The notes under the pieces were generated by a model. The model ran no database searches and was not told where the DNA came from. It was given only the letters and a program-made list of their open reading frames with translations. This document shows positions 41,436-50,028 of a DNA stretch of 53,120 nt, piece by piece. The stretch's first letter is position 1, and each line of letters opens with the position of its first letter. Source of the DNA: Butyrivibrio sp. (GTDB lineage Bacteria; Bacillota; Clostridia; Lachnospirales; Lachnospiraceae); contig JAFZQT010000133.1 of the NCBI GenBank assembly GCA_017620235.1, forward strand, positions 1 through 53,120, read 5' to 3'. Made by a program: the position numbers and the translations under genes.

Positions 41436-42389
41436 TTATCTTGATGATTCAGTTGATGCGCTGTCAGAAGCCTTATCTGATGTCTTATTTGAAGTCTTGT
41501 CAGAAGCGCCTGTTGACGCACTGTCTGATGCCTTATCAGAAGCGTCTGTTGATGCACTGTCTGATGCTTTATCTGAAGTTGTATCAGATGCACCTGTTGA
41601 TGCGCTGTCTGTAGCACTGTCTGATTTCTTCTTTTCTGTCCTTGATGTAGTTCTGTCTGTTTTGTTAGAAGTCTTGTCAGTAGCATTTGCTGCTTTATCA
41701 GCAGTTTCCTCAGTTGCCTGTACGGGAACACTTCCTGCAGGACTCTTTACTACCGCATACATTACATTTGAAGATGCGGCCTGATCTACCTTTGCAGTAA
41801 CTACGCTTGCATTGGTACTGGTATTATTGAATATCTTATATGCTCCGCCTGCATAAACTGCAACGATGGAGTAGTCCATGCCTGCCGTCTGGAAGCTTGC
41901 AGGGATTCCGATACTGATCGTACCTGCTGTTCCTTCGGTACTGCTTGTAAACTTACCTCCTGCCATCTTTCCGTAAAAAACATTTATACAAGGACCAACC
42001 GTTCCGCTAAATGAAGACGCAACACTGCTTGCAACCGCAACAGCTGCTTTACTCTTTGTCGCATCGGTATCCGCAACCTTTACAAAAGATCCTGTTCCGG
42101 GAACAGAAGGTGTAAGTGCCACACCCTGAACTTTCTTTGCAAAATAATAACCGTCAACTGCTGACTTCACGCCTGCAACAGTCTTATTTGTGGGAGCCGT
42201 AGCCTCCTTTATCATATTTTCAACTTCTGCCTGAAGCTTTTTCTGTCTAGCCTCTTCAGCACGTTCTTCTTCACTCGGTCCGTCTTCTTCTGCCGAAACT
42301 GCGGCAATTGCCTCAGTAACCGGTGCCATGAAGATCGCACCCATCAAACCTGCAACTACAACGTACTTTATAAGCTTTCTAAATTCCAT
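41436..42389 (-). CDS. Secreted protein with Ser/Asp/Ala/Thr repeat tail
   Basis: This exported protein of 317 residues has a signal peptide (EFRKLIKYVVVAGLMGAIF, then APVTEAIA) and a charged region. A globular middle part follows (about 55-230; VKSAVDGYYFAKKVQGVAL, TISIGIPASFQTAGMDYSIVAVYAGGAYKIFNNTS). The tail of about 70 residues is made of SDSAS-TGASD-KASD units. There is no LPXTG, lipobox or surface-layer motif. GGAGGG precedes the ATG. The dyad at 42430-42455 stands just upstream. Function is unknown; a wall-associated or matrix protein is likely from composition. Confidence 0.8.
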   Translation of the reverse strand: MEFRKLIKYVVVAGLMGAIFMAPVTEAIAAVSAEEDGPSEEERAEEARQKKLQAEVENMIKEATAPTNKTVAGVKSAVDGYYFAKKVQGVALTPSVPGTGSFVKVADTDATKSKAAVAVASSVASSFSGTVGPCINVFYGKMAGGKFTSSTEGTAGTISIGIPASFQTAGMDYSIVAVYAGGAYKIFNNTSTNASVVTAKVDQAASSNVMYAVVKSPAGSVPVQATEETADKAANATDKTSNKTDRTTSRTEKKKSDSATDSASTGASDTTSDKASDSASTDASDKASDSASTGASDKTSNKTSDKASDSASTESSR

Positions 42390-42429
42390 TTTATTATCCC
42401 TCCTTAATTCACGATAATAAAATGATGTA

Positions 42430-42455
42430 GATGTCAAAAGTGAATTTTTGACACC
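42430..42455. promoter_or_regulatory. Second copy of the GTGTCAAAAGT dyad
   Basis: GATGTCAAAA (42430-42439) and TTTTTGACACC (42445-42455) form a dyad almost identical in sequence to 4957-4981. The copies differ by one base in spacer length. On the minus strand it follows a TATTAT-like -10 box and precedes the start codon of the secreted protein by about 40 bases. Confidence 0.7.
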
Positions 42456-42586
42456 GTATAATATATTTGTATTTTAGATGCTACTCTCCTAAAAACTTTT
42501 TTCAATTCTTTAGAAAGATTATTTAGAATGATTTTAGATGCAGTATTTGAAAGTTTATTATTTATTTAGGAACTCTTTATTTTTTT

Positions 42587-43195
42587 GAAGCCTCACGCGC
42601 CATGGCAAAGCCCGTCTACAGTAGTTTTTCTGCTCATCTCAAAACATTATATTGAGCGCGGGATTGGATAAACATATGATGCGCTTCAAAACTCACATAT
42701 GCACCAAAGAATTTTCTGTCTGTTCATCGCAGATGATTTTTATAACCTCGTCCGTTTTTCTTGAGGTCAAAGATCACTTTCCTGCATGCGGAGAAAAATG
42801 TTTGAAGCAGGACGCTTCTTAGTGTTCTCAGGTCATGGTCATTGTCCGCAAAGCGGACTACCACAACAAATATAAAACGCGACTTTTCGAACTCGCATGA
42901 GCTCGGAAAGTCGCGCTTTTATTTGTTGTAGGTGCATATGCACCGCATGACCATGACCAATATAGAGTATATGAGCGTCCTGCAAGTTCTTTTCGGAGCA
43001 TGCATACGAGGAAAGTGATCTGACCTTTAGAAAAACAAGAGGTTTTAACGAATCTGCATGAACAGACAAAAATTCTAAGGTGCACATGCTCAGACAGATT
43101 TCGCGCATCATATATCCAATCCTACGCTCAATATAATTTCGATGAAATGCAGAAAAACTACTGTAGACGGGCTCTGCCATAGTGCGTGAGGCTTC
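42587..43195. repeat. 609-bp imperfect inverted repeat (giant hairpin)
   Basis: Two arms of about 300 bases, starting GAAGCCTCACGC at 42587 and ending with its complement at 43195, match end to end. The outer 47 bases agree at 44 positions. Inward the match is roughly three quarters by eye with small insertions. The centre (about 42863-42927) is a strong hairpin with ACAACAAA/TTTGTTGT and AAAGTCGCG blocks. The right arm on the minus strand stays open for 113 codons from 43180, but the left arm is full of stops and the differences ignore codon phase. It begins six bases after the ABC permease stop and fills most of the 42390-43201 gap. Confidence 0.9.
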
Positions 43196-43201
43196 ATTTC
43201 C

Positions 43202-45829
43202 TCAAACCTCTGCCAATCTCAGTCTTTCGATGACAGTTTCCTTCATAGCTCTCTTGTACACAATATAAGGAATAATCAGCATTACAAGACTCATAAACGG
43301 AATAACTGCGACAATGGGTAAAAGCGTAAACTTATACGAAAAGAACCACAATTCTTCCTCCAAAGGTCTTATCATCGCTACAGAAGCAATCCCGCTCAGT
43401 ATAAGTCCAAGTATCAAAGACAATGCTCCATAGATCACTCCTTCTATACATACGCTTTTTTTCTGAATATCCTTGGTCATCCCGACCGCTTCAAGCATCG
43501 CCAGTTCCAGTCTTCTTGATATTATCGAAGTGACAAAGGTGTTTATGAAGTTAAGGATTCCGATAAGCGCAAGTATCGTTGTCAGTAATCCTCCGACTGT
43601 TTTAAACAATCTTGTCATAGATTCAAACTCTTTTCTAATTACAGCTCTTGATGAATACGTCAGGGACGGTTCAACATTTTGGGTATAGTTTTGCATCCAT
43701 TCTTCTATCACAGGCTCAGCCTCATCCGTGGTATCAAAAAGAGTTCTCATAGGAGATCTGTCTCCAAAGAAATCAAGGAACTCTTCTGAGGGAAGCACAT
43801 ATGCCACATCCATATCCACGTAATACTGTATTCTCATGGCTTGCGGAATATTAGCAGTTGCCATAACCTCATATTCACGGACTTCGCCATTGTTATTGTT
43901 TACCCGGATTGTCTCTCCCGGAAGAAAATAAGGAAAATAACCACCTATATTATCGTTGCCATTATCATATTCGTTTACAATAATGTATTTCCCTGTTCTG
44001 AACTTTTCTTCATCATATTCCCCATGGATAAATTGCAGATTACGGATAGCATAGTCGTCCATTCCATATATCTTCGCAATTGTAGCACCATCCATCGACA
44101 TCTTACCGGACTCATCACTGACAGAAAGCATATCCCTCATCCATGAATCTACCATATCATTTTCCAGAAGCCGCTCACTGAATCTTTTATAATCCCTGTC
44201 ATTAAATTCCTGATAGCTGTACTGCTCGGCATATATATTTCCTTTATCAAGGATTCCCTCTTGCTTTTGCAGCTCTGATAGGAATGTAGCAGTAATACCG
44301 TCATAAATTTTTTCAGCAACCGCTAGATTATCTGTAGTCGCATCAGTTACGGAAAAGTCCGTATTTATTAAATGCTCTACATATTTGTTTTCATCAAAAC
44401 CTATAAGCATGGTGTATACAATGCTAAGTACCGTCAAAGAAAGAGCTAAAGACAGCACCACAAAAAAGCATCTCTTCTTTTCTCTGAAAACATTTCTGAA
44501 CGCAAAACGTGTAGCATTAAAAGTTCCCGATCTCTTTGGACTCTTTTTGCTAAATCCGGCATTTTCCGAGTAATGGACCGCTTCGATCGGAGACGCCTTT
44601 GAAGCCATACTTGCTGCTCTTCTAACCGAGAAACGCACTGTGATATAAGAAAAGATCGCAGAAAACAAAAGTATCCAAACATTTACAACAACTTTGGAAT
44701 TTACATTTTCGGAAAAAATCATGTTTCCCATAAAAAACGGAAGAAGCATACTTCCTGCGATCACTCCGCCTATAATTCCTACAACAATTCCTGGTACGGA
44801 ATGGTATATCGCCTGCCATTTCACAATTCTTTTAAGCTGTTTACCGCTTGTGCCAACTGTTTTTAACAGCCCGTACGAGCGAATGTCCGTGTAGACATTG
44901 ATTCTATATATGTTATTGATGATAAGATAGCCAGATAAAAAGATTGTAAGTAGCATCGCAACAACAAATGCAACTGTGCCAAGATTCATGGCTGAACCCA
45001 CACTTCCCCAGTTAATACCCGTTTGTGTATTTGCAGGAAGCCCGTCTCTTTCTATTGCCTTATCAATCTGATATTGGAAAAATAACGGGAAGTAGAAATC
45101 AACCTCGGCATCAATCCTTCCGTAAATATCTTCATAACTCTTTGGTTCGCTATTTTCATAGTAAGATTCCACCGGAGTAGGAGCGAACTTTTCCTGAAAT
45201 TCTTTTGACACCACTATCATTTGAGCCATAGAGACGAGGTCTCCGGTATGCACTCCCACTACAACGAAGTCTTTGGTCTCCGCTTCGTTTTTTCCTTCAA
45301 TTTTGAGAGAAAGATTTTTTCCCAAAAGATTCTCATAGTCTTCTTTGGAATCAGCCTTCATGCCAAAAGCCTGTAAAACCAGGCTGCTCACTGAAATTTC
45401 ATTTTCCTTTTCGGGAAGGCGCCCTGCTTCCGGATAACAGAAGCTTGTTTTTGCACTAACTTCGTCGTAGTAATCAATCTCAGCACTCAGTTTGCTTAGC
45501 TCGTCGTTTACCGCATATCCGACATGTATAGATTCAGAAACACTCTTAAGCTTCTTGTCCGAAGCAAGACGATCATACTCTTCTTCAGTAAGATACTTTA
45601 CCCCCGCGTTACAAGACGATCCGATCTGTCTGTTCGTGGAATCCTGTATTTTTGCTATGATGCTCCCGCTAAGGGTAAAAAGTGTCGCGAACATAAACGT
45701 ACACAGCGCGATTGAAAGAATCACCACAAGGCTTTTTCCAGGATTCGCCCTAACGGTTTTATAAGCAAGATTGCGGATCACTTTTCCGTTTTTGACCCTA
45801 GGTCCGTTTACTCTTTTTTCTTTTTCCAT
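43202..45829 (-). CDS. FtsX/MacB-family ABC transporter permease
   Basis: This is a large permease of 875 residues with ten helices expected. An N-terminal helix (about 28-50) is followed by an extracytoplasmic domain, a first FtsX block of three helices (about 280-410; IYRINVYTDIRSYGLLKTVG), a linker, a further helix near 450 and a second extracytoplasmic domain. A second FtsX block follows (about 735-865; SRRLELAMLEAVGMTKDIQ). The layout is that of peptide-resistance and envelope-stress permeases. The ATG at 45829 lies two bases after the ATPase stop, with AGAGG upstream. The two-component genes at 47885-49457 probably control or sense through this transporter. Confidence 0.92.
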   Translation of the reverse strand: MEKEKRVNGPRVKNGKVIRNLAYKTVRANPGKSLVVILSIALCTFMFATLFTLSGSIIAKIQDSTNRQIGSSCNAGVKYLTEEEYDRLASDKKLKSVSESIHVGYAVNDELSKLSAEIDYYDEVSAKTSFCYPEAGRLPEKENEISVSSLVLQAFGMKADSKEDYENLLGKNLSLKIEGKNEAETKDFVVVGVHTGDLVSMAQMIVVSKEFQEKFAPTPVESYYENSEPKSYEDIYGRIDAEVDFYFPLFFQYQIDKAIERDGLPANTQTGINWGSVGSAMNLGTVAFVVAMLLTIFLSGYLIINNIYRINVYTDIRSYGLLKTVGTSGKQLKRIVKWQAIYHSVPGIVVGIIGGVIAGSMLLPFFMGNMIFSENVNSKVVVNVWILLFSAIFSYITVRFSVRRAASMASKASPIEAVHYSENAGFSKKSPKRSGTFNATRFAFRNVFREKKRCFFVVLSLALSLTVLSIVYTMLIGFDENKYVEHLINTDFSVTDATTDNLAVAEKIYDGITATFLSELQKQEGILDKGNIYAEQYSYQEFNDRDYKRFSERLLENDMVDSWMRDMLSVSDESGKMSMDGATIAKIYGMDDYAIRNLQFIHGEYDEEKFRTGKYIIVNEYDNGNDNIGGYFPYFLPGETIRVNNNNGEVREYEVMATANIPQAMRIQYYVDMDVAYVLPSEEFLDFFGDRSPMRTLFDTTDEAEPVIEEWMQNYTQNVEPSLTYSSRAVIRKEFESMTRLFKTVGGLLTTILALIGILNFINTFVTSIISRRLELAMLEAVGMTKDIQKKSVCIEGVIYGALSLILGLILSGIASVAMIRPLEEELWFFSYKFTLLPIVAVIPFMSLVMLIIPYIVYKRAMKETVIERLRLAEV

Positions 45830-45831
45830 GC

Positions 45832-46506
45832 TCACACCTCTTTGCCCGCGATAAGACCGTCTTCAATCCTGATGATCCTGTCCGCCATCTGTGCGATTTC
45901 TTCGTTGTGGGTGATAACAATGATAGTCTGCGAAAAGCGCTCACTCATCACCTTCAGAAGTCCCATAACGTCCTGACTTGTCTTGGAATCGAGATTCCCC
46001 GTAGGCTCATCGGCCAAAATGACCTGTGGTGCGGATGAAAGCGCTCTCGCAATTGCAACTCGTTGCTGCTGCCCGCCGGAAAGCTGATTTGGATAGGAAT
46101 TTCTTTTATCCGACAATCCAAGGGTATCAATGATATTATCGACAAACTCTTTATCCGGCGTATTCCCGTCGAGTTCTATGGGAAGTACGATGTTCTCGTA
46201 AACCGAGAGAACGGGAACGAGGTTAAAAGACTGGAAGACAAATCCTATCTTCCTTCTCCTGAATATAGTGAGTTCTTCATCTTTCAATGTAAAAATGTCT
46301 TTTCCGTCAATCGAGACTGTTCCCGAGGTCGGACGATCCAGCCCTCCGAGCATATGTAAAAGAGTTGATTTGCCGCTTCCCGATGTTCCGACGATCGCGA
46401 TAAACTCACCTTTTTCAACGGATAGGCTCACACCTTTAAGCGCTTCAACCGCCGTATCGCCGCTTCCGTATGTTTTCTTTAAGTCTGTTACATGTAATAT
46501 CTGCAT
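45832..46506 (-). CDS. LolD/MacB-type ABC transporter ATPase
   Basis: This ATPase of 224 residues has Walker A GTSGSGKST (about 37-45), LSGGQQQRVAIARAL (about 138-152), Walker B VILADEPTGNLD and switch His in VITHNEE. The sequence type is that of MacB/LolD/BceA proteins that work with FtsX-domain permeases by mechanotransmission. The ATG at 46506 (AGGAG upstream) is preferred to a GTG. It directly precedes the permease gene and lies 31 bases after the ABC-2-like membrane gene. Confidence 0.94.
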   Translation of the reverse strand: MQILHVTDLKKTYGSGDTAVEALKGVSLSVEKGEFIAIVGTSGSGKSTLLHMLGGLDRPTSGTVSIDGKDIFTLKDEELTIFRRRKIGFVFQSFNLVPVLSVYENIVLPIELDGNTPDKEFVDNIIDTLGLSDKRNSYPNQLSGGQQQRVAIARALSSAPQVILADEPTGNLDSKTSQDVMGLLKVMSERFSQTIIVITHNEEIAQMADRIIRIEDGLIAGKEV

Positions 46507-46537
46507 TTTTAACTCCTTTTCCACTTTATTGGAATGT

Positions 46538-47698
46538 CTAATGTCTTTTTTGATAAATAAAATATCCGCTCAGGATAAACACAACGGATAGCGTTATATA
46601 CAAGATAGGGGCAGTTTGTAACGCCGTCAGATAAAAGCCATTCCACCCTATCAGTCTGTATTCATAAAGCGCCGGTTCAGATATCATATTCACAGGCGAT
46701 AGCAGGCATGAAAGCTGGGAAAGCAACCTATTGCTGTATGATAATTGACCGGAGCTTACGAACAATACCAGAAAGCAACCAAAAACAGCCCCTGCCGCTG
46801 CCAAAGAGTTTTTGAACCAAGCCGACAAAAAGCACGTAACCGCAGTTAACAACATGCTCGTTGCCATGGATATAATTAACTGCCAAACAATAAACTGTCC
46901 TATTGTCATGGAATATGGTGTCAGAGGGAAAAGATCTTGTATCACAGCGTCCCATCCAGCCATTCCCCATCGGATACAATATGTCGATATGGCCGCTATC
47001 ATTAAAATCATATTGAGAAAAAAAGTAAAGATGGTGGCGGCAACTATCTTAGCCCAATAGGTATCACGCCATCCTCTGATAGCACATCTGATAAGCGGAT
47101 CGGTTTTATCTTTTACTTCTCCGGCAAAAATCTGACTCAGCAGTAAAACAGTCACAAACAGCATTACTATCGGAACTGCTACCATAATGTGATAAAGCCC
47201 CTCTATCTCATTTGTATAATTCCAAATAAACGGCTTACTTACAGTGTCTTCCTGCTTCTCCCAGTACTCTTTTTCTCCGGATGAAAGATTCATCAAGTTC
47301 ATCTTTTCGCATATAGCGTTTTCTCTTTCTTGATAAACCAATTCCGCATCATACTCGGTAAGCGGCTTACCATAATCAACAGCTTGCCTTAGCCACCCCG
47401 TAAGCCCCATATATGTACAATTTGTTTCATTGAAACACTCATACGGCTGCCCAAGTTTGTATGCTGCTTCCGCCGTCTCTGCGATCAGAGCATCATCTAT
47501 CTGTCTTCCGTCAATTGAATGTTGAAGAGGTCGTGTCTTTATATCAAAATCATCCATTTGTCCTATCTGAGAAAGCACTTGCATGATCAAATAAGTTGCA
47601 AGAACAACGAGCAAGATTTGTGTAGAACGAAGCATCAGAATTTTTCTGAACTCGTAAAAAAGAAGTGTGCCAAATTGCCTGCTTTTATGTAGTTTCAT
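46538..47698 (-). CDS. ABC-2-type membrane protein
   Basis: This 386-residue membrane protein has one N-terminal helix (about 22-40), an external region of about 120 residues, and then five or six helices from about 165 to the end. This is the pattern of ABC-2 permeases of the bacteriocin-immunity or Na-export type (VAVPIVMLFVTVLLLSQIFAGEVKDKTDPLIRCA is typical of the second-helix region). The ATG at 47698 has GGGGGAG upstream. It lies upstream of the ATPase and FtsX-type permease, so it may share the ATPase or be an accessory. A terminator separates it from the kinase gene. Confidence 0.82.
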   Translation of the reverse strand: MKLHKSRQFGTLLFYEFRKILMLRSTQILLVVLATYLIMQVLSQIGQMDDFDIKTRPLQHSIDGRQIDDALIAETAEAAYKLGQPYECFNETNCTYMGLTGWLRQAVDYGKPLTEYDAELVYQERENAICEKMNLMNLSSGEKEYWEKQEDTVSKPFIWNYTNEIEGLYHIMVAVPIVMLFVTVLLLSQIFAGEVKDKTDPLIRCAIRGWRDTYWAKIVAATIFTFFLNMILMIAAISTYCIRWGMAGWDAVIQDLFPLTPYSMTIGQFIVWQLIISMATSMLLTAVTCFLSAWFKNSLAAAGAVFGCFLVLFVSSGQLSYSNRLLSQLSCLLSPVNMISEPALYEYRLIGWNGFYLTALQTAPILYITLSVVFILSGYFIYQKRH

Positions 47699-47842
47699 TG
47701 TTTTTCTCCCCCAACGAGCTGTCTGAATTATGATGTATTTCACTGCAAACAATTATCACACACGATTCTTTCCAGAATCTTTCCGTGCAGTATTCAATTC
47801 TTACAGTTCTGACATAATTGCTTGATGAAATATGCGTTTGGG

Positions 47843-47881
47843 AAAAAATATAGGGAAACGCTGAATAAAACAGCATTTCCC
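47843..47881 (-). terminator. Terminator of the two-component operon
   Basis: GGGAAACGCTG (47853-47863) and CAGCATTTCCC (47871-47881) form an 11-bp stem with one G-U pair on the minus strand. TATATTTTTT follows. It lies four bases after the kinase stop, so the ABC genes need their own promoter or read-through. Confidence 0.85.
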
Positions 47882-47884
47882 CAA

Positions 47885-48787
47885 TTACTTCTTTGGTAAA
47901 AATACAGAAAACGTAGAGCCGGCTTCCGGTTTAGAAGTTAGTTTTATGTAACCACCCTCTTCTGAGATTATCTCCCGCGCAAGGTGCAGACCGATTCCTA
48001 CACCCTCTTTTTGCTTAACGGCGTTACCACGATAGAAGCGCTTGAAGACTTTTGCATGCTCTTCTTCGGGGATTCCGATTCCGGTATCTTTGATATCTAT
48101 CCGAATAAACATTTCATACGGAACAACACTTACCTTGATGCTGCCCTTATCGGTGTATTTGACTGCGTTATCAACTATGTTTGCGATTGCCTCATGTGTC
48201 CACTTTTCATCGATCACAGCTTTTGCATCGGTCTTGTCGGCTTTGAGTTCCAAGCCCTTAGCCTCTGCTTTTTCCTTAAACTGATGGACAATTCCATTGA
48301 TCATTGGTTCCAGAGGTGTTTCTTTTGGTTCCAAAGCAAGAATCCCGTTCTCAAGCCTGGACAGCTTAACGAGGCTGTCTATAAGAAACCTGAGTTTCTC
48401 TGCCTGCTCATGGATTGCCTTTGCATTAGATTGGTCAATATCCGAAAGCTCTGCGTTTTCCAATAATTCACTATACAGTATCAGATTTGCAATGGGAGTC
48501 TTGGTCTGATGCGATATATCAGAAATCAGCGACTTTATCTTGTCGCGCTCATTTTCTATGTTTTTCGCCGATAAAGATGAAGAGCTCAAGAAGCCTGAAA
48601 GTTCCGCTTCAAGTTTAGATAACCTTCCCTCATCAAAGCTCTCCGAAGAAAAATTGCCGTTCATCGCAGCCCTAAGCATTTTTTCTATAGAATCAATGAT
48701 CCTTTCAGTGCGTATTCTTTCGGTAACTGCGATGATACACGCTGTCAGGATCAAAACGATGCCAATAATTAGTATTATATTATCCAT
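47885..48787 (-). CDS. Sensor histidine kinase, single membrane helix
   Basis: This 300-residue kinase has one N-terminal helix (about 4-21) and no extracellular sensor domain. A coiled linker leads to a HisKA domain with H93 in ISDISHQTKTP, then an ATPase domain with VDNAVKYT, DTGIGIPEE, FYRGNAVKQKEGVGIGLHLA and GSTFSVFLP. Kinases lacking a sensor domain often read the state of a neighbouring ABC transporter, which fits the ABC genes downstream. The ATG overlaps the regulator gene by eight bases. Confidence 0.93.
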   Translation of the reverse strand: MDNIILIIGIVLILTACIIAVTERIRTERIIDSIEKMLRAAMNGNFSSESFDEGRLSKLEAELSGFLSSSSLSAKNIENERDKIKSLISDISHQTKTPIANLILYSELLENAELSDIDQSNAKAIHEQAEKLRFLIDSLVKLSRLENGILALEPKETPLEPMINGIVHQFKEKAEAKGLELKADKTDAKAVIDEKWTHEAIANIVDNAVKYTDKGSIKVSVVPYEMFIRIDIKDTGIGIPEEEHAKVFKRFYRGNAVKQKEGVGIGLHLAREIISEEGGYIKLTSKPEAGSTFSVFLPKK

Positions 48788-49457
48788 TCTGTTTCACCCA
48801 ACTGTAGCCGATTCCGTATATTGTCTTAATCTTATCCTGTGCCGAAAGCTTGTCCCTGAGCCTTTTTACGGTAACAGACAGAGTGTTCTCGTCAACATAT
48901 TCCGCATCACCTGTCCATAGTCTGTCTATCAGAACTTCTCTTTTCACAGTCATGCCCGCATTGTCGGTAAGGATTCTCAAAAGCCTTTGTTCTGTCTTGG
49001 ACAGCTCTACTATCTGCGAATTTGCAGAAAAGATCATGTTCTTATAGTCAAAGACAAATGTTTCATCCACATATTTGCCATTATCATCAATTGGCTGAGC
49101 TTTTCTAAGCTGTGTATTCACCCTTGCGCGCAGCACTGCGAGCGAAAACGGCTTTGTTATATAATCATCGGCGCCCTGCTCAAGGCCTGTAACAATATCT
49201 TTGTCCGTATCATTTGCGGTAAGAAGGATAACAGGAAGTTTCGGACTGCTACACTTGATTTCTTTAAGCAGATCAAGACCGCTCCCGTCCGGAAGATTTA
49301 TATCCAATATCACGAGCGTGACCATCCCAAGCGCCAGCTGCTCACGTGCTCCTTGGATACTTTCGCATGACACTATCTGCCTGTCTATTTCTTTCAACGC
49401 CTGACACAATCCGCTGTTAAGTGTAGAGTCATCTTCGACGATCAAAATCTGTTCCAA
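48780..49457 (-). CDS. OmpR-family response regulator, TTG start
   Basis: This 225-residue regulator has a receiver domain (E8-D9-D10, phospho-acceptor D52 in LDINLPDG, Lys in YITKPFSL near 101) and a winged-helix output domain from about 128 (TEQRLLRILTDNAG, LWTGD, VTVKRLRDKLS). The start is TTG at 49457, with AAGGGAG seven bases upstream. It is first in the operon and divergent from the lipoprotein at 49573. It probably regulates the ABC genes 43202-47698. Confidence 0.93.
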   Translation of the reverse strand: MEQILIVEDDSTLNSGLCQALKEIDRQIVSCESIQGAREQLALGMVTLVILDINLPDGSGLDLLKEIKCSSPKLPVILLTANDTDKDIVTGLEQGADDYITKPFSLAVLRARVNTQLRKAQPIDDNGKYVDETFVFDYKNMIFSANSQIVELSKTEQRLLRILTDNAGMTVKREVLIDRLWTGDAEYVDENTLSVTVKRLRDKLSAQDKIKTIYGIGYSWVKQNG

Positions 49458-49572
49458 ACTTTTTCTCCCTTGAGATGTTTATTTATAAAACATTTTGATT
49501 GAATGAACTTCAAAGAATAGATTATCATATGTGTATGGCATATTTCTACGCCGACTACGAGGAGATGTTTGT

Positions 49573-50028
49573 ATGAAGATGAAAATGCTTTTGCCGATAT
49601 TGGCGTTAAGTATACTTGTTGTGGGATGTGAAAAGAAAAATGATGTTGAGATAACCGGTGCGCCGTCTGCGGTAGAAGCTCAATCAGCGTCAGAGGAGGA
49701 AAGCACTTTGGGAGATTCAAGTGAATCCGGCGCCAAGGTGCTTACCGATGAGCAGGCGCGTGATGCGGTGTGGAAGTATATCTGTACTGAGGAAAATCCG
49801 AGTCTGGAAGAGTATGACGGAGAGGCTTCCGTTTATTGTTGTGTCAGCTCTGAGGAAGGTGCAGATGAAATTAGGATCGATTTTAGATCATACACAGGTT
49901 CGCACGAGTATTTTTACATCGATCGTTCCACGGGAGATACGCATTCTACGCAGTATGTTCCCGGAATAATTGATGAAGAAGAGGACACGGGCTTATCCAT
50001 AAACATGTGGGATTATGTAGAAAAATAG
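49573..50028 (+). CDS. Small lipoprotein of unknown function
   Basis: This 151-residue lipoprotein has lipobox VVGC (Cys19). The ATG at 49573 is preceded by GAGGAG at eight bases and starts the signal peptide, so upstream in-frame starts are rejected. After an acidic Ser-rich spacer comes a domain of about 95 residues (LTDEQARDAVWKYICTEENP, EIRIDFRSYTGSHEYFYIDRSTGDTH), which resembles small PepSY-like or YpeB-like repeats. The family is not certain. It is divergent from the response regulator gene and may belong to its regulon (inference). Confidence 0.78.
   Translation: MKMKMLLPILALSILVVGCEKKNDVEITGAPSAVEAQSASEEESTLGDSSESGAKVLTDEQARDAVWKYICTEENPSLEEYDGEASVYCCVSSEEGADEIRIDFRSYTGSHEYFYIDRSTGDTHSTQYVPGIIDEEEDTGLSINMWDYVEK

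Follow-up and report, generated by a model that had tools for sequence, protein, structure and literature searches.

The window analysed here, a 53,120-nucleotide stretch of Butyrivibrio sp. DNA, contains one member of a repeat family that is probably a non-autonomous fold-back transposable element of the MITE type, approximately 550-900 bp in length, whose two arms seem to be kept paired by copying. The initial annotation of this DNA had offered several readings of the element, and the one naming a palindromic mobile element is supported by dispersed copies, by two empty orthologous sites, and by the IS4-type ends and target duplications of some relatives.

The near-palindrome extends from position 42586 to 43196, and alignment of arm against arm gives 73% identity over 646 columns. 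Orientation is set by fixed differences between the arms, such that arm A lies to the left and arm B to the right. The outer stem (arm A, 42586-42633; arm B, 43149-43196), described beforehand as nearly perfect over 47 bases, comprises 48 nt with 94% complementarity in a repeat search, and more paired blocks follow inward, including a conserved arm stem at 42646-42670 in arm A (the ATTATATTG block) and 43113-43137 in arm B. The outer stem varies greatly between copies and is matched inside each copy; its arm A tip, GAAGCCTCAC, if it is an IS4-type end at all, is a degenerate one. Closer to the centre, on the plus strand, are the arm A head neck GGTCATGGTCAT (42831-42842) and a small local hairpin A (GTCCGCAAAGCGGAC; 42844-42858). 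These are followed by a central apex hairpin (42874-42919), which by eye resembles a terminator with a T-rich tail on both strands, and then, again on the plus strand, by a small local hairpin B (GGTGCATATGCACC; 42931-42944) that co-varies inside arm B among copies and by the arm B head neck ATGACCATGACC (42947-42958). The RNA fold energies of -334.4 kcal/mol (plus strand) and -354.1 kcal/mol (minus strand) compare with shuffled means of -152.4 and -160.3 kcal/mol (z = -29.3 and -30.0, with 0 of 20 shuffles as good on each strand), and the capacity of this inverted repeat of about 600 bases to fold into a giant hairpin is therefore real. Next to it lies an FtsX-like ABC permease gene on the minus strand (43202-45835), whose stop at 43202 is separated from the element by 6 bp, the gap originally reported. 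The element carries no transposase gene of its own.

The genome of the window (G000) has four copies of the element, this one counted, at 84-87% identity; each matches on both strands (eight rows), and a chance local inversion-duplication, the outcome that the initial annotation had named as refuting it, is thus excluded. The search of relatives proposed there likewise uncovered a repeat family. A DNA search matched 8 genomes in an initial set of 61 and 12 among 79 Butyrivibrio genomes, and a covariance model of the head, built from 18 copies and applied to the best 33 candidates per genome (so that copies may be missed), finds matches in 34 of the 79 at E <= 0.01. Because palindromes score on both strands, the match rows (26 in G361 and 25 in G014, for example) overcount places. 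In a family-level set of 397 genomes, with the best six candidates of each scored, nine match, two of which are Butyrivibrio; among the other seven, only G304 has convincing full-length matches (E down to 1e-7), the remainder being partial or weak. A DNA search of 299 family-level genomes (best two candidates each) returned, outside the element's own genome, only a 30-base match. Plasmids and phages searched by DNA similarity, and viral contigs searched with one exact pattern, gave no match, and the titles and abstract openings surveyed in the literature contain no description of this Butyrivibrio family. Copies turned alike align end to end (13 in one alignment) and show fixed differences between arm A and arm B. 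At one locus (L075, G035:C27:59625-60969), two giant hairpins lie no more than 1.4 kb apart in opposite orientation. In the orthologs L086 and L089 (G027 and G028), arm A and its flank are nearly identical and arm B and its flank differ, a pattern that suggests recombination with a breakpoint inside the element.

The termini of related copies are variants of RAAACTTCCCACACC, and such AAAACTTCCCACACC-like ends also occur on a complete insertion sequence (IS). In G386, AAAACTTCCCACACC and AAAACTTCCCATACC flank a 1.57-kb IS encoding a 457-aa transposase of the IS4 family (NF049925 in NCBIfam, scoring 545.9 bits where the cut-off is 250; Pfam DDE_5 and DDE_Tnp_1), in which the YREK signature is present as YGKRWQIEVFFKTCK. 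For the IS4 subgroup ISPepr1, De Palmenaer et al. (2008, PMC2266710) give ends of the form YT-AA-YTT---A, repeats of 7-8 bp and AT-rich targets. The G386 IS ends, CTAAAACTTCCCA, fit this consensus, and TTATTTA stands on both sides of the IS as a perfect 7-bp repeat. On the strength of its ends, repeats and YREK/DDE features, rather than a transposase tree, we regard this IS4-family IS as ISPepr1-like. Relatives of its transposase occur at E <= 1e-10 in 13 of 79 genomes and are full-length or nearly so in G386, G011, G007, G028 and G365; none was found at this threshold in G000 or G398, both incomplete assemblies (G000 is 86% complete). No likeness between the interior of the element and that of the IS was noticed by eye.

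When AAAACTTCCCACACC was searched with up to one mismatch, 34 of 79 genomes matched, as against 22 for the reversed control, and single one-mismatch matches are therefore weak evidence on their own. Some genomes exceed the control by a wide count: 28 places versus 2 in G398, 11 versus 0 in G035 and 9 versus 0 in G376. The copies in G398 look recent. Nineteen ends among its 28 places were inspected. Sixteen of them are no more than 100 bp from the end of a contig, and the inner sequences are of two recurrent types, one A-like and one B-like, which suggests recent amplification. Many contigs of G398 (L150-L169 except L163) and of G386 (L171-L173) stop inside element copies or near IS ends, so that counts of copies in draft genomes are lower bounds.

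Target duplications were examined in 14 giant copies; L070, L075-L077, L081, L085, L086 and L088-L090 were excluded as partial or as having lost or unclear ends. Perfect 7-of-7 duplications flank L074 (TAAGATA), L082 (TTTCTTA) and L087 (TCACTTA), the last with one end shifted by a base. Counting the IS, 4 of 15 own pairs show such a duplication compared with none of 210 cross pairs, one of which reaches 6 of 7. The other 11 of these 14 AAAACTT-lineage copies, the window copy included, match at 0-3 of 7 positions and show no target duplication. The boundaries in this test follow the ISPepr1 consensus and were moved after the data had been seen; in a first version they lay 2 bp further in, with a length of 9-11 bp. 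Both versions choose the same three copies, and no cross pair (182 and 210 pairs, respectively) equals these. Outside the 14-copy test, L088 and L090 show no flush repeat. A loose scan for 9-bp repeats over wide zones was dropped since it gave many chance matches.

Two copies can be compared with orthologous sites that do not carry the element, as expected of a MITE; the rearranged locus of the window copy yielded no empty site. At the position of the C76 copy, G033 and G016 have the flanks joined with neither the element nor a palindrome, and in G035 a terminator-like hairpin takes the place that the element occupies in G000. The flanks of the C50 copy occur without the element in G016, G033 and G370, and G035 has a different sequence there. 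In G000, the C50 copy is situated between a stop codon and an intact terminator.

A second kind of end is attached to the same giant hairpin in G031 and partly in G361. These copies end in GTTACCATTCACAGT, which has 12 matches in G031 versus none for the control. Among giant copies of this lineage, 8-of-8 repeats flank L342 and L343 and a 7-of-8 repeat flanks L307, with partial matches at L274 (6/8) and L358 (4/8); eight other elements with GTTACCATTCACAGT ends include five with 8/8, two with 7/8 and one with 3/8. Only two of 156 cross pairs match comparably (one 8/8, one 7/8), and both concern L343 and L357, which the printed flanks identify as the same locus in two species. A hint of the helper for the GTTACCATTCACAGT lineage is a truncated IS4-type transposase next to an end of this type, which scores 51.6 bits for NF033592, short of the cut-off of 115. 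Most copies in G361, G360, G014 and G022 have neither end motif. Given two kinds of end and many copies with neither, the core seems to be older than its ends, and the ends seem to have been exchanged. Palindromes of about 35-65 bp with either type of end were also seen in several Butyrivibrio genomes (L163, L174, L176, L177, L178, L188, L189, L348 and L357); these are perhaps deletion remnants or micro-MITEs, and some may be plain terminators. G019, G368 and G377 contain elements of 143-147 bp (L351, L352, L353 and L359) that end in GTTACTATTCACAGT and are flanked by perfect 8-bp duplications.

The head of the core is conserved beyond what plain decay of a MITE would leave. Specifically, in 18 aligned copies the neck always reads TCATGGTCA on the arm A side and TGACCATG on the arm B side; the 18 were chosen from 20 inspected (L082 has no TCATGGTCA in arm A, and L089 was set aside as an ortholog of L086). 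Because the copies were cut out by the neck motif with up to one mismatch, this constancy is partly a matter of choice. Small hairpin A varies in sequence and stays a hairpin (GTCCGCAAAGCGGAC, GCTCGCAAAGCGAGC and CTTGCGTAGCAAG), as does small hairpin B (GGTGC..GCACC, GGCGC..GCGCC and GTTGC..GCAAC), and the apex hairpin, which has the looks of a bidirectional terminator, is conserved and co-varying. The three hairpins on a single neck form a cloverleaf-like head. A binding factor, or a need for the folded form, would predict such a head; junk DNA would not predict the TCATGGTCA neck, and its constancy accordingly counts against the MITE reading. We also entertain, tentatively and as an idea with the odds against it, that the conserved core forms an independent module: folded single-stranded DNA made of a rod and a cloverleaf head with the TCATGGTCA neck and exchangeable small hairpins, which would be recognised by a factor, spread on different IS4-type ends and preserve its fold because it is copied through its hairpin form.

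Element copies are concentrated at gene ends. A gene 3' end lies within 40 bp of the element end at 22 of 24 loci in a first set and at 23 of 31 in a second. Copies lie between convergent genes at 14 of 24 loci, versus 14 of 159 neighbouring pairs from these loci (p 1e-7), and at 14 of 31 in the second set, versus 9 of 83 background pairs (p 1e-4). Depletion between divergent genes is non-significant in both (0/24 versus 21/159 background pairs, p 0.08; 1/31, p 0.44). These neighbour statistics are based on mechanical ORFs rather than annotation. For the second set, 10 of 40 loci were excluded beforehand for contig ends or weak or partial palindromes (L285, L289, L290, L294, L296, L304, L306 and L308-L310) and L342 was added; the excluded L290 sits between divergent ORFs.

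Such siting, reproduced in two sets of loci, together with the conserved and co-varying apex, is what would be expected if the host retained the element as a bidirectional terminator or 3'-end element, in which convergent transcripts each enter an arm and stop at the apex. We regard this function as unlikely. Orthologous sites exist without the element, and at one of them the gene's own terminator is intact alongside; a simple terminator scan did not call the apex hairpin; and the same 3'-end siting would also follow if insertions survived there neutrally or if the target were AT-rich. Targets such as TTTCTTA and TCACTTA include the stop-codon-like TAA or TTA, which, combined with harmlessness of insertion at these places, can explain the location of a mobile element at gene ends.

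Pairing between the arms has been maintained to an unusual degree. The consensus fold of 13 copies has 217 pairs. Both sides have changed in 70 of these, as against a mean of 32 after shuffling and 12-22 in slid versions; 96.9% of cells pair, compared with 35.5-43.2% in slid versions. This is a strongly positive outcome for the test suggested at the outset, that substitutions should affect both arms with pairing kept. The two-sided changes are clustered (38 versus 23.5 expected, 0/2000; inner part alone, 12 versus 7.4, 49/2000), and this clustering is partly shared ancestry.

Strong covariation of this kind, the conserved internal-loop sequences, the covarying local hairpins of the head and a fold z-score near -30 on both strands would all suit a large rod-shaped structured RNA gene, transcribed from one strand with its pairing under selection. 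The details of the substitutions argue against such a gene. Were one strand transcribed, G-U should be favoured over A-C on it, and this is not the case: isolated stem mismatches in 20 copies comprise 26 G-U and 29 A-C, and long-range pairs among the 202 common to the folds of both strands comprise 36 G-U and 31 A-C cells (p 0.63), or 29 versus 30 distinct types (p 1.0). A fold derived from one strand alone favours that strand (66 versus 31 cells for plus, with the mirror image for minus), and since each strand is favoured only on its own fold, a single-strand G-U count is circular. The better-folding strand is also inconsistent, being one strand in 12 of 19 copies and the other in 7. Furthermore, indels are mirrored between the arms, clearly in L068, L080 and L078 and approximately in L073 and L079. 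Rfam gave no match to the window copy at gathering scores, and permissive matches fall far below them (best 24.2 bits against a cut-off of 70). In view of the missing strand bias and Rfam match, the covariation does not show an RNA, and the folded RNA reading of the initial annotation loses most of its appeal. A selected rod RNA was our own starting interpretation; it was abandoned because of the G-U versus A-C counts, the both-strand fold test and the mirrored indels, and we now consider it improbable, weakened as it is by the strand test.

The absence of a G-U preference on either strand, together with some mirrored indels, instead suggests that template switching, in which DNA is copied from one arm to the other, keeps the pairing, rather than selection acting on an RNA. 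Template switching at hairpins has been described as a source of multibase compensatory changes by Monttinen and Loytynoja (2022, PMC8794818). DNA-level copying from arm to arm predicts that outer stems should resemble each other more within a copy than between copies, and in 12 copies (L075 excluded) their identity is 88% within and 65% between. For the inner arms of the same copies the values are 74% within and 88% between. Arms folded singly (34 arms from 17 copies) show little consensus fold besides the apex hairpin. Length differences with no mirror in L069, L070 and L075 count against the arm-copying explanation.

A further alternative, as improbable as the RNA gene, concerns the origin of the ends. 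The core could insert by a mechanism of its own into small palindromes (IS4-type mini-elements or terminators), in which case the IS ends, duplications and outer stems would be derived from the target. At one locus, G001 has a 47-bp mini-palindrome and G031 a 793-bp element with ends in common, and the outer stem of the G031 element holds an inverted copy of the middle of the mini-element. Tiny palindromes with the same ends are common, and the terminator-like hairpin at the C76 site of G035 is compatible with a palindromic target. However, the 47-bp form is more simply explained as a remnant produced by deletion between 6-bp CAGTTT direct repeats, and insertion into a mini-palindrome is less likely than deletion for this pair, the reverse polarity being possible. 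The core and ends also recur together in L307 and L342 (G031) and in contig C151 (G398), and at the C76 site neither G033 nor G016 has a palindrome. Finally, a tail-to-tail duplicated small gene with one decayed copy is almost certainly not the explanation, since the 113-aa ORF in arm B of the window copy has no Pfam match, the ORFs in other copies, where there are any, vary in position and strand with none common to the copies, an informal look saw no conserved reading frame with synonymous bias across copies, and the arm differences include, as the initial annotation had observed, indels that break codon phase.

Under the favoured interpretation of a mobile fold-back element, an IS4-type transposase acting in trans would have cut and pasted the element, and its arrival at stop codons and between convergent genes would reflect AT-rich targets containing TAA or TTA, along with low harm. 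The palindrome would extrude as a hairpin during replication, allowing one arm to template the other by template switching or quasi-palindrome correction. Judging from the substitution pattern, substitutions and some indels would in this way appear in both arms. Outer stems would then drift fast yet together, and differences between the inner arms would survive in the form of internal loops. Besides the constant neck and the unmirrored length differences, several results weigh against this interpretation: the 11 giant copies that have no target duplication, the partial matches at L274 and L358, the many copies with neither end motif, the lack of a transposase relative at E <= 1e-10 in G000 and G398, the apex hairpin that the terminator scan did not call, and the non-significant depletion between divergent genes.

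The window copy is probably old and immobile, given its degenerate ends, the lack of a visible target duplication (2 of 7 positions) and the failure to find such a transposase in the genome (86% complete). By eye, its tips GAAGCCTCAC resemble GAAACTTCCC at 7 of 10 positions. In the window genome the element lies at a junction of a rearranged block (42590|43209; other end 49458): in G033, G035 and G370, block 43209-49458 has the opposite orientation with respect to the sequence left of 42590, an arrangement that the split contigs of G016 also fit. The block beside the element consists of ABC and two-component genes and is turned round with respect to three related species (L374, L377 and L378). 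Beyond 49459 the window does not resemble what the relatives have on the far side of their permease, and a look at the far end of the inverted block (49380-50000) found no element copy, so the rearrangement may be more than a simple inversion. On the other side of the element, about 30-50 bases at 42417-42465, upstream of the gene at 41436-42437, recur at 79-97% identity in several Butyrivibrio genomes, with seven listed places in G398; this sequence could be another small repeat or a regulatory motif.

With many copies in one genus, this family offers a natural test of long-palindrome survival and pairing in bacterial chromosomes. It also carries a warning, in that textbook covariation can be produced in DNA where no RNA has a function, even when as many as 70 pairs have changed on both sides; comparing G-U with A-C mismatches on each strand and looking for mirrored indels both help to separate DNA-level copying from RNA selection. 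The family probably breaks assemblies, since these ends are where contigs of G398 and G386 stop, and it may influence the ends of genes throughout Butyrivibrio.

REP, ERIC and YAPL/RU-2 are short, dispersed, palindromic repeats found in intergenic regions of bacteria. The Butyrivibrio element shares their dispersed, intergenic and palindromic character, but these repeats are far shorter. Another comparison is with IS-derived bacterial MITEs such as RUP, a 107-bp element with IS630-Spn1 as its suspected helper (PMC2229807). Like these, the Butyrivibrio element is gene-less, intergenic and multi-copy, with IS-type terminal inverted repeats and short target duplications. Unlike RUP, it forms one near-palindrome of about 550-900 bp with arms of about 300 bp, its arms evolve in concert, and one core is joined to two kinds of IS-type end. 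The likeness to the ISPepr1 subgroup (PMC2266710) comprises YT-AA-YTT---A ends, 7-8 bp repeats and AT-rich targets, with a candidate helper in G386; in contrast to ISPepr1, the element has no transposase gene and an interior that is unrelated to the IS by eye. Similar to the template-switched stems presented in PMC8794818, its arms show multibase compensatory changes at the DNA level for which G-U intermediates are unneeded. That study concerns RNA genes with short stems, whereas here each copy of a mobile element has about 200 pairs.
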